A stretch of DNA of 55,923 bases from Flavobacteriales bacterium (GTDB taxonomy: Bacteria; Bacteroidota; Bacteroidia; Flavobacteriales_F; PHOS-HE28), in NCBI GenBank assembly GCA_018057455.1, contig JAGPDT010000014.1, forward strand, positions 5,778 to 61,700, in the 5' to 3' direction. A program made the position numbers and the translations under genes. Positions within the stretch are counted from its first letter, which is position 1, and every line of letters starts with the position of its first letter. Shown one piece after another: positions 48,301-55,316 of the stretch. Below the pieces are notes generated by a model. The model had not been told where the DNA came from, ran no database searches, and saw only the letters and a list, made by a program, of their open reading frames with translations.

Positions 48301-51111
48301 ATGCCCAAAGACAACAGCATCAAATCGGTCCTGCTCATCGGTAGCGGCCCCATCGTCATCGGCCAAGCCTGCGAATTCGATTACTCGGGCAGCCAAGCTT
48401 CCCGCTCGCTGCGCAACGAAGGCATCGAGGTCACGCTGATCAACAGCAACCCGGCCACCATCATGACCGACCCGGTCACGGCCGACAACGTCTACCTCAA
48501 GCCGCTCACCACGGCGAGCATCGAAGAGATCCTCCAGAAGCACAAGATCGACGCGGTGCTGCCCACCATGGGCGGGCAAACGGCGCTCAACCTGGCCATC
48601 GAGTGCGAGAAGCTCGGCATCTGGAAGGAACACGGCGTGCGCATGATCGGCGTGGACACCGAAGCGATAGATATCACCGAGAACCGCGAACGCTTCCGCG
48701 CGCTGATGGAGAAGATCGGTGTGCCCATGGCGCCGAGCAAGACCGTAACCAGTTTCCTGGAAGGCAAGAAGGTGGCGCAGGCGTTCGGCTTCCCGCTGGT
48801 GATCCGCGCCAGCTACACCCTCGGCGGCGCCGGAGCAGCCTTCGTGAAGGACCCCGCCGAGTTCGACAAGCTGCTCAAGCACGGCCTGCAGATCAGCCCC
48901 ATCCATGAGGTGATGATCGACAAGGCGCTGCTTGGTTGGAAGGAATACGAACTCGAACTGCTGCGCGACAAGGACGACAACGTCACCATCATCTGCTCCA
49001 TCGAGAACTTCGATCCGATGGGCATCCACACCGGCGACAGCATCACCGTGGCACCCGCGATGACGTTGAGCGATCGCACCTATCAACGCATGCGCACCGA
49101 GGCCATCAAGATGATGCGCTCCATCGGTGATTTCGCGGGCGGTTGCAACGTGCAGTTCGCCGTAAGCCCCGACGAGAAGGAGGAGATCTACGCCATCGAG
49201 ATCAACCCGCGGGTGAGCCGCAGTTCTGCGCTCGCATCAAAAGCCACGGGTTATCCCATCGCCAAGATCGCCAGCAAGCTCGCCATCGGTTACCGGCTGG
49301 ATGAACTGGAGAACCCCATCACCGGCACCAGCGCCTTCTTCGAGCCCACGCTCGATTACGTGATCGTGAAAGTGCCCCGCTGGAACTTCGACAAGTTCGA
49401 GGGGGCCGATCGCCGCTTGGGCGTGCAGATGAAGAGCGTGGGCGAAACGATGGGCATCGGCCGCAGCTTCCAAGAGGCGTTGCAGAAAGCCTGTCAGAGC
49501 CTGGAGATCAAGCGCAACGGCCTCGGTGCCGACGGCAAGGAAACGCGCGACGCCGCCGTGCTGCTGGAAAGCTTGGCCAACCCCAGCTGGAGCCGCCTCT
49601 TCCATGTGTACGACGCCATCAAGCTGGGCATCCCCTTCGCGAAGATCCACGAGATCACGAAGATCGACCTGTGGTTCCTCAAGCAGATCGAGGACATGAT
49701 CCTCACCGAGCGCGAAGTGGAGAAATACACGTTGGACACCATCCCGCGCGACCTGCTCTTCGAGGCCAAACAGAAGGGTTACGCCGACCGCCAGGTGGCG
49801 CATTTGCTGCGTTGTTTGGAAAGCCAAGTGTACAAGAAGCGCGATGAGCTCGGCATCAAGCGCGTATACAAACTGGTGGATACCTGCGCCGGTGAATTCC
49901 CCGCGAAGACACCGTACTACTACAGCACCTTCGAGGAGGAGAACGAAAGCGTGCGCAGCGACAAGAAGAAGATCGTGGTGCTGGGCAGCGGGCCCAACCG
50001 CATCGGGCAAGGCATCGAGTTCGACTACTGCTGCGTGCATGGCGTGCTGGCGGCCAAGGAGCTGGGCTACGAGACCATCATGATCAACTGCAACCCGGAG
50101 ACGGTGAGCACGGACTTCGACACGGCCGACAAGCTCTACTTCGAGCCCGTGTTCTGGGAGCACATCTACGACATCATCCTGCACGAAAAGCCCGAGGGCG
50201 TCATCGTGCAGTTAGGCGGACAAACCGCGTTGAAGCTGGCCGAAAAGCTGGAGAAGTACGGCATCAAGATCATCGGCACCAGCTACGCCGCGCTGGACAT
50301 GGCCGAGGACCGCGAGCGTTTCTCATCACTGCTGCGCGACCTGAACATCCCGTACCCCAAGTTCGGCGCGGTGAACAACGCGGAGGAAGCGGTGAAGCTG
50401 AGCCGCGAACTCGGCTTCCCGCTGCTGGTGCGGCCCAGCTACGTGCTCGGCGGCCAGAAGATGAAGATCGTGATCAACGAGGAAGAGCTGGTGGACCAGG
50501 TGCTGGACATCCTGCGCCTGATGCCCGACAACAAGATCCTCATCGACCACTTCCTCGACGGCGCCATCGAAGCGGAGAGCGATTCCATCTGCGACGGCGA
50601 GCTGGTGCGCATCATCGGCATGATGGAGCACATCGAACCGGCCGGCATCCACAGCGGCGACAGCAACGCCGTGCTACCGCCCTTCGACCTCAGCGACAAG
50701 GTGATCCAGCAAATGCGCGAGCACACGCACAAGATCGCCCTCGCGCTGAAGACCGTGGGCCTGGTGAACATCCAGTTCGCCATCAAGGACGAAGTGGTGT
50801 ACGTGATCGAAGCCAACCCGCGCGCCAGCCGCACCGTGCCCTTCATCGCCAAGGCCTACGGTGAGCCGTACGTCAACTGGGCCACCAAGGTGATGCTCGG
50901 CGCCAAGCTGAAGGACTTCCGGTTCAAGCCTCGGCTGGATGGCTATGCGATCAAGGTGCCCGTCTTCAGCTTCGATAAATTCCCGAATGTGGACAAGAGC
51001 CTTGGGCCTGAGATGAAGAGCACGGGGGAGGCGATCTACTTCATCAAGGATCTGAAGGATCCGTTCTTCCGGCAGGTGTATGGGGAGCGGAGCATGTATT
51101 TGAGCAGGTGA
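48301..51111 (+). CDS. carB: Carbamoyl-phosphate synthase large subunit, lacking the MGS domain
   Basis: A 936-residue protein that makes carbamoyl phosphate from ammonia, bicarbonate and two ATP for arginine and pyrimidine synthesis. Two homologous ATP-grasp halves are seen, opening with VLLIGSGPIVIGQACEFDYSG and VVLGSGPNRIGQGIEFDYC. The E. coli protein has about 1,073 residues; the missing part is the C-terminal MGS-like domain that binds UMP, IMP and ornithine. The protein ends FFRQVYGERSMYLSR. Upstream in-frame codons are non-coding, so MPKDNSIKSVLLI is the start. A diverged second copy of its last 91 bp lies at 55226-55316. Confidence 0.95.
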   Translation: MPKDNSIKSVLLIGSGPIVIGQACEFDYSGSQASRSLRNEGIEVTLINSNPATIMTDPVTADNVYLKPLTTASIEEILQKHKIDAVLPTMGGQTALNLAIECEKLGIWKEHGVRMIGVDTEAIDITENRERFRALMEKIGVPMAPSKTVTSFLEGKKVAQAFGFPLVIRASYTLGGAGAAFVKDPAEFDKLLKHGLQISPIHEVMIDKALLGWKEYELELLRDKDDNVTIICSIENFDPMGIHTGDSITVAPAMTLSDRTYQRMRTEAIKMMRSIGDFAGGCNVQFAVSPDEKEEIYAIEINPRVSRSSALASKATGYPIAKIASKLAIGYRLDELENPITGTSAFFEPTLDYVIVKVPRWNFDKFEGADRRLGVQMKSVGETMGIGRSFQEALQKACQSLEIKRNGLGADGKETRDAAVLLESLANPSWSRLFHVYDAIKLGIPFAKIHEITKIDLWFLKQIEDMILTEREVEKYTLDTIPRDLLFEAKQKGYADRQVAHLLRCLESQVYKKRDELGIKRVYKLVDTCAGEFPAKTPYYYSTFEEENESVRSDKKKIVVLGSGPNRIGQGIEFDYCCVHGVLAAKELGYETIMINCNPETVSTDFDTADKLYFEPVFWEHIYDIILHEKPEGVIVQLGGQTALKLAEKLEKYGIKIIGTSYAALDMAEDRERFSSLLRDLNIPYPKFGAVNNAEEAVKLSRELGFPLLVRPSYVLGGQKMKIVINEEELVDQVLDILRLMPDNKILIDHFLDGAIEAESDSICDGELVRIIGMMEHIEPAGIHSGDSNAVLPPFDLSDKVIQQMREHTHKIALALKTVGLVNIQFAIKDEVVYVIEANPRASRTVPFIAKAYGEPYVNWATKVMLGAKLKDFRFKPRLDGYAIKVPVFSFDKFPNVDKSLGPEMKSTGEAIYFIKDLKDPFFRQVYGERSMYLSR
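51021..51111 (+). repeat. carB 3'-end repeat, proximal copy
   Basis: The last 91 bases of carB, stop codon included. They align without gaps to 55226-55316 with 10 mismatches (81 of 91 identical). Confidence 0.9.
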
Positions 51112-51258
51112 CATTCACTCCGAACGGAGTGGAGTGGCGTTCTGTCGCTGCGAGCCTGCTTGGATTTGAAGCAGCTGAGGTCGCTTTTGATCGGTCAAGG
51201 GCCGAATGGAATGGAGGGGGGACACTCTTTGACACAGTCTTTCCGATAGGTTGCGCAC
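51112..51258. other. Left junction of the inserted segment
   Basis: About 150 bp between the carB stop and the end of the leftward lipoprotein gene. It begins with a small perfect hairpin CACTCC-GAAC-GGAGTG (51116-51131). No gene is recognised. Confidence 0.5.
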
Positions 51259-55097: not shown

Positions 55098-55225
55098 GGC
55101 TTCGCGATCGCAGGACCGAAAATAGATGCTTTTGGCTTAACTCCACCCCAACTTGCGCGAGCGTCTCCGCTCGTGCACGCCGCATAGTCCCTGGCGCTAG
55201 TTCATGGCCAGCCTGAAAGGAAGCG

Positions 55226-55316
55226 CACCGGCGAGGCGATCTACTTCATTAAGGATCTGAAGGACCCGTTCTTTAGGGAGACGTATGGGAAGCGGAGCAT
55301 GTATTTGAGCAGGTGA
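55226..55316 (+). repeat. carB 3'-end repeat, distal diverged copy (carB remnant)
   Basis: It encodes TGEAIYFIKDLKDPFF and RSMYLSR plus stop, the same C-terminus as carB with three residue changes. Six of the ten base differences are synonymous, so it descends from a functional carB end. Similarity continues weakly a few bases upstream (about 55212) and then stops. Confidence 0.9.

Follow-up and report, generated by a model that had tools for sequence, protein, structure and literature searches.

The 3' end of carB as a probable serial insertion site for small gene cassettes in a genus of Flavobacteriales

A displaced carB end and an empty site

We analyzed a stretch of 55,923 nucleotides, referred to here as the window, from a Flavobacteriales bacterium (NCBI GenBank assembly GCA_018057455.1, contig JAGPDT010000014.1, positions 5,778 to 61,700), in which the 3' end of carB is found twice. 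A repeat search of the window returned a direct repeat on the same strand (51006-51111 and 55211-55316, 88% identical, spacing 4,205), and a recount placed it at 51007-51111 and 55212-55316, with 92 of 105 nt identical. Positions in carB ends are numbered here from the last base of the carB stop codon, which is 0, with negative values upstream, and the repeat accordingly spans -104 to 0. Twelve codons differ between the two copies, seven of them synonymously. A preliminary description of this DNA had reported the last 91 nt of carB (51021-51111) as recurring at 55226-55316 with 81 of 91 identities; the recount agrees, though the repeat starts further left. The features of the locus, which ends with the end of its own contig (G000:C119; G, C and L mark genomes, contigs and loci), are as follows.

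48301-51111, plus strand: carB, intact, 936 codons
51007-51111, plus strand: proximal carB end (-104 to 0), which probably came in with the cargo
51112-55316 (equivalently 51007-55211): inserted unit of 4,205 bp, absent in the related genome G053
51259-53073, minus strand: gene 1, 604 aa, lipobox-bearing, with a GH47 match
53079-55097, minus strand: gene 2, 672 aa, exported-looking, with a GCX_COOH domain
55212-55316, plus strand: distal carB end, the displaced original end, 92/105 identical to the proximal copy
55338-55385: palindrome with 24-nt arms that are 96% complementary
55406-55923, minus strand: four-helix bundle gene (TIGR04258 suffix), truncated where the contig stops

The two genes between the copies had been described as AT-richer than their surroundings, and both measures bear this out: GC content is 0.47-0.59 across the insert (500-nt windows) as compared to 0.60-0.63 over carB, and GC at third codon positions (GC3) is 0.65 and 0.60 in the two genes as compared to 0.885 in carB. 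The distal copy is not part of a longer or second full carB in the window, a candidate that was ruled out by the homology being limited to the 105-nt end and reaching no further upstream than -104.

The preliminary description had anticipated relatives in which carB is joined directly to the right flank, and this arrangement is found in G053, where an intact carB is followed immediately by the palindrome and the four-helix gene (80% identity over 615 bp, the match starting 5 nt after the stop codon). When the flanks of the window are joined at the repeat, a carB of 936 codons is restored, and its alignment with G053 covers 1402 bp at 85%. The four-helix gene also follows a carB end in G018, G019 and G049C282, with about 60-150 bp of other sequence between (the contigs of G019 and G049C282 start inside carB), while it stands after the last displaced end in G004 and, together with the palindrome, after a displaced end in G049C177 and G011. 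In part of the genus, it was probably the original gene to the right of carB. Because G053 joins carB directly to the distal flank, the distal copy of the window represents the old end, now displaced, whereas the proximal one would have arrived with the cargo, which supports the earlier reading that an insertion at the gene end brought a replacement and displaced the old end.

The relationships of the two ends support an import from another lineage, as had also been suggested: the distal copy is identical to the native carB end of G006 at 99 of 105 positions as compared to 92 of 105 for its own carB, and the closest native end of another genome to the proximal copy matches at 97 of 105 (G013C18). 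A local tandem duplication of the carB end and its neighbour, followed by decay, would likewise give direct repeats in the same orientation. However, the cargo is not repeated on both sides, the empty site contradicts such an origin, and the distal copy is nearer to the end of G006 than to its own carB. Tandem duplication, a recent form of which had been doubted from the outset, is thus extremely unlikely.

Extra carB ends and their cargo in the genus and the class

A degenerate carB-end pattern matched 35 of the 45 genomes of the genus, whose isolate names point to wastewater bacteria, and since the reversed control pattern matched 0/45, the carB-end repeat is not due to chance. At least one extra carB end was present in 23 of the 35 genomes. 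In 21 of these, both carB and the extra end or ends are in the assembly, and in the remaining two (G046 and G056), where an intact carB was not found, the displaced end is at most 1.5 kb away from a contig edge. Wherever carB shares the contig, the extra ends are located downstream of it and in its orientation, and the cargo between them differs from genome to genome, as had been foreseen for an integration hotspot; G041 carries as many as four extra ends with single open reading frames (ORFs) between them. The framing of the window as a single cassette is thus not supported, the arrangement being repeated across the genus and sporadic elsewhere in the class. No extra carB end was found in the nearly closed genomes G010 and G059. 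Ten of the 45 genomes gave no carB-end match, five of them at least 90% complete, which may reflect assembly, since many contigs break inside carB; the hotspot itself probably splits assemblies.

An assembly artefact, in which mixed strains or metagenome bins are joined at a conserved stretch of 100 bp, could imitate such arrays. Most of the genomes are fragmented metagenome-assembled genomes, many contigs end at carB, and several bins hold two carB copies. However, extra ends are also present in assemblies of 4 and 9 contigs (G004 and G054, respectively), the copies are diverged rather than identical, and cassette and flank sequences recur across assemblies, so that an artefact is highly improbable.

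Within these loci and the window, a downstream copy of the gene's own end was found for 14 of 421 entries of ORFs of at least 250 codons, 12 being carB and two other ORFs. The 12 carB entries correspond to 11 loci, as the window repeats G000, which gives 11 of the 25 testable carB loci. Outside the genus, 11 among 396 genomes of the class (at least 90% completeness) had at least two carB-end matches. Seven of these have carB ends downstream of carB (G062, G128, G136, G318, G351, G353, G363), and the other four comprise two second full carB genes and two weak second matches. In the family of G351, more than one carB-end match occurs in 3 of 36 genomes. Among 52 other loci, taken from the best 80 matches listed, 49 were testable and four had a copy (L155, L156, L190, L194), the sequences of L155 and L194 being the same as those of G062 and G353. 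No account of carB ends as insertion sites was found among the papers listed in a literature search, although part of that search matched words of the "carbon" type and says little.

The cargo scan covered 93 proteins (84 of 131 ORFs from the genus and 9 of 12 from outside it), and the figures given here derive from the 25 commonest of 65 Pfam families. Por_Secre_tail was matched by eight proteins, DUF1016/YhcG (PADLOC candidate PDC-S02) by six and a 23S rRNA-intervening-protein-like (23S IVP-like) family by four; two cytosine methylases and two N6/N4 methylases were present. Single cases were a SacI-type nuclease, a GmrSD nuclease and HEPN, PIN, Fic, ORF6N and transposase domains, and cargo from outside the genus included a nucleotidyltransferase-HEPN pair, a HicB-like antitoxin and a zeta-toxin-like protein. 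Defence- and toxin-type cargo is present, but the eight Por_Secre_tail proteins are as common. DUF1016/YhcG nuclease genes recur beside carB ends in L036, L037, L050, L102, L105 and L112, and in L099 by DNA match.

The cargo of the window had been labelled as a lipoprotein and a type IX secretion system (T9SS) protein. The first label is consistent with the lipobox of gene 1, whose GH47 match scored 26.2 bits against a Pfam cut-off of 22.9. The second has no Pfam support, gene 2 matching 0 Pfam families and, in NCBIfam, solely the GCX_COOH 3-coathanger domain. Relatives of gene 1 occur in three and of gene 2 in four other genomes of the 45, none beside carB: gene 1 relatives of 84% identity lie at other loci in G020 and G050, adjoining a TonB-dependent-receptor-like gene (by eye), a 44% relative stands beside a gene 2 relative in G040, and gene 2 relatives of 33-41% were found in G004, G020, G059 and G040. 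The same cargo at carB everywhere, which would have spoken against an insertion, is thus not what relatives carry; with its relatives at non-carB loci, the pair comes from the accessory pool of the genus. The coding sequence of the four-helix gene is split between two frames that meet near 55741-55744, owing either to a frameshift or to a sequencing error in the vicinity of the contig end. A diversity-generating retroelement with template and variable repeats, a candidate raised by this gene, was rejected, the changes between the carB copies not being adenine-specific (by eye).

Exchange of the carB tail and borders of displaced ends

The divergence of the carB tail was compared with that of its body in 18 genomes (153 pairs), each with at least 1,500 nt of carB in register. 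The set leaves out G057, G051C19 and G022C107, all shorter entries, and six that had hardly any upstream carB or none; short contigs would overstate body identity, and frameshifted or gapped entries would stretch the alignment. The correlation with the body was -0.02 (rho) for positions -99 to 0, 0.06 for -198 to -99 and 0.24 for -297 to -198, while it ranged from 0.30 to 0.76 in the twelve windows further upstream. The 12 closest pairs diverge by 6% in the body, yet by 18-19% in the last 200 nt. The last 200-300 nt of carB therefore act as an exchangeable part in this genus.

A list of 41 junctions, with one row per distinct upstream flank, was compiled by hand; it omits the long second carB part of G054, contig-edge pieces (G040, G012, G001, G013) and second pieces in chimeric ends, and its row for G060 rests on 11 nt read by eye. 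Eighteen of the 41 distinct junctions start at -98 to -105, whereas 1.1 would be expected if they were uniform over 300 nt, and from this preferred border we infer a position-specific joining. The 18 include two fresh copies in other Bacteroidota, outside the genus, which have their borders at -104/-105 where no gene end adjoins: in L156 the copy comprises 105 bp at 99% with a single 925-aa gene between, and in G351 (L196) 106 bp at 100% with the nucleotidyltransferase-HEPN pair between. Several of the other borders recur because a unit was inherited or transferred, such as the fusion of a DUF1016 gene at -138, seen in G004, G008, G051C71 and G001C174, a flank common to G041 and G022, and a common hairpin insert near -50.

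Of the 15 ends in the genus that have the preferred border, 13 are preceded by an ORF on the carB strand (at least 68 aa) whose stop lies within -10 to +7 nt of the border, for which the chance is 0.042 each, the interval having been chosen after seeing the data; among ends with other borders this was the case in 3 of 12. Eleven of the 13 ORFs also have a possible start within -6 to +20 nt of the preceding carB-type stop, giving eleven units that consist of one ORF fitting tightly between two carB ends. Often such an ORF terminates at the TGA within the GATGAAG of the carB end itself, and for several the start codon is the ATG in the CGATGA that precedes them. The window unit does not have this compact pattern, as both of its genes lie on the opposite strand. 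One could imagine that Bacteroidota have an integron-like system for capturing cassettes that has so far gone unrecognised and that uses the carB end as its recombination site. In such a system, a recombinase acting in trans would join single genes, from start to stop codon, between carB ends of about 100 bp that supply the start (CGATGA) and stop (GATGAAG) signals, with expression from the carB transcript. We consider this unlikely; no integron integrase was found near the arrays, and no tyrosine recombinase in 139 carB loci.

Further features of the ends were noted. Some carB ends contain a central inverted repeat (by eye). The displaced ends in L040, L042, L044, L049, L050 and L098 share an insert near -50, with a hairpin in most, and those in L036, L099, L100 and L102 carry an insert near -42 that resembles repetitive extragenic palindromic (REP) sequences. 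A 2-nt loss, CTTCATC to CTATC, was seen by eye at two different carB places in different ends. REP-like repeats follow many carB stop codons, and in G059 and G001 (L114, L035) the neighbourhood of carB ends contains genes that resemble, by eye, those for RAYT-like (REP-associated) transposases. An insertion-sequence-like transposase gene (by eye) interrupts the carB end that lies at the edge of a contig in L197 (G351:C21).

Possible mechanism and known systems

Taken together, our results suggest that the carB 3' end is probably a serial insertion site for small gene cassettes, which would operate by position-preferred joining together with homologous reshuffling and without a recombinase of its own. 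New DNA, consisting of a carB end and one or a few cargo genes, would be placed in front of the resident carB end; carB would remain intact with the new end, and the old end would be left downstream, attached to its old right neighbour. Joining at a specific position in the final 35 codons of carB may create the borders, and the most likely agent would be a recombinase acting in trans, perhaps one of the host. Homologous recombination could then shuffle units and spread them between lineages, with every carB end or displaced end serving as a homology arm. The unit of the window would be the pair of lipoprotein and exported-protein genes.

Several observations weigh against this proposal. Twenty-three of the 41 borders lie elsewhere, from -24 to -289, and outside the genus only 2 of 10 are in the preferred zone (P = 0.03). 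Long second carB parts also exist: G054 has codons 426-936 a second time 11.7 kb downstream of the intact carB, followed by two more ends (L105/L106), and long pieces cut by contig edges lie 8-16 kb downstream of carB in G040, G012 and G001 (edges of L097, L041 and L034). (The roughly 11.7 kb between carB and its second part in G054 contain a gene for a resistance-nodulation-division-type efflux protein, 1440 aa, by eye.) The upstream window -792 to -693 is intrinsically variable as well (0.177 between close pairs), yet it tracks the body (rho 0.54), and two-segment fits in 11 close pairs placed the breakpoints in the proximal carB at -21 to -388, with no cluster at -105. Position-specific joining can therefore not be the whole story. 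The spread of breakpoints without a single crossover point is what homologous exchange would give and, together with the uncoupling of tail and body, supports movement by homologous recombination at carB, one of the options raised earlier, as a major component. The preferred zone moreover contains an ATG codon and could thus also be under selection for translational coupling. Each species is represented by one genome, and no insertion event was observed directly.

The search for a recombinase weighs in the same direction. A tyrosine-recombinase profile was built from 24 integrases of the genus and recovers 9 of the 10 integrases on which it was tested (E up to 0.01); it found none in 12,068 ORFs of the 139 carB loci (1.97 Mb, partly redundant), and among the PF00589 matches listed none lies near carB where both share a contig. 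Serine recombinases were found in 0 of 45 genomes, with the control giving a signal in 10 of 14. In favour of the proposal, the ComEC competence family PF03772 was matched in 40 of 45 genomes; against it, the window's own genome gave no such match.

These points are taken up by an explanation that involves homology-assisted illegitimate recombination only, in which incoming linear DNA would recombine through carB on its left side and be joined on its right side by microhomology arising by chance, at times within the resident end, with deletion and selection for translational coupling trimming the borders to the ATG at -98. It accommodates the variable breakpoints, the 23 borders outside the zone, carB loci that differ in cargo without a leftover end, the wide occurrence of PF03772, the negative recombinase search near carB, and the many genus borders that lie on an ATG with an overlapping upstream stop. 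On the other hand, 18 of the 41 borders fall within 8 nt, and the fresh copies of L156 and G351 are bordered at -104/-105 where no gene end adjoins. We regard it as possible but not probable.

Alternatively, the units could be decayed integrative elements, i.e., cis-mobilizable elements (CIMEs) left by integrative mobilizable elements (IMEs), integrative and conjugative elements (ICEs) or prophages that had a carB-specific integrase, lost it later and accreted in tandem. The preferred border fits this origin, as does the anatomy, which matches the tandem accretion at gene ends outlined in PMC5704250. However, the searches near carB turned up no integrative element that carries an integrase, neither among the 139 loci nor among the PF00589 matches listed, and no search aimed at relaxases was made; three scans of viral contigs found none that contains a carB end, and phage and plasmid records gave only 5 and 2 weak matches, respectively, at less than 50% identity. 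A phage origin was rejected on these grounds, and decayed elements are a doubtful explanation. The preliminary description had likewise seen no integrase, and none was found in the 139 carB loci; its suggestion that the cassette may have lost a recombinase is no better supported than one that never had it.

Since the carB tail turns over apart from the body, it would provide a ready record of repeated gene import in which displaced ends tag past events, and carB trees in this group mix two histories. Uncharacterised genes for defence and toxin-antitoxin systems could be sought at the carB 3' ends of Bacteroidota. If a recombinase acting in trans were found, it would allow single genes to be put downstream of an essential gene while leaving that gene undamaged.

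Several known systems resemble the carB arrays in part. Integron arrays consist of compact one-gene cassettes, each beside a recombination-site-like repeat. The one-gene units at carB likewise stand each next to a repeat, and the newest unit would be nearest to the fixed end; unlike in integrons, the repeat is a coding gene end and no integron integrase was found.

In the tandem accretion of IMEs and CIMEs at gene ends (ICESt1-type), an element brings a replacement end and displaces the old one, and further elements accrete (PMC5704250). The carB loci share with it the direct repeats of the target gene's end, which resemble attL and attR, and the empty site in a relative (G053). They differ in that no integrase was found with the units, which may consist of a single gene, and in that the end is exchanged over about 300 nt as in homologous recombination; as to the crossover position, 18 of 41 borders lie at -98 to -105, but the breakpoints are variable.

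The H47 genomic island of Escherichia coli has long imperfect direct repeats and no recombinase of its own, and its excision and integration were shown to occur with host functions (PMC3191183, PMC5426353). It thus offers an experimentally tested precedent for islands that have long repeats but lack a recombinase. However, it is one 13-kb island whose repeats are not described, in the parts of these reports consulted, as ends of a housekeeping gene, whereas carB ends recur in arrays with changing cargo.

Finally, the core defence hotspots of Pseudomonas aeruginosa combine a conserved flank with a fast turnover of defence cargo, often have no mobile gene, and have been proposed to work by homologous recombination of the flanks (PMC10250203). 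Serial displaced copies of the flanking core gene are not described in the parts of that work consulted. A conserved flank, here carB, with variable cargo beside it is common to both, the cargo at carB comprising Por_Secre_tail proteins as well as defence-type genes, and these hotspots are an ecological precedent for the carB locus.

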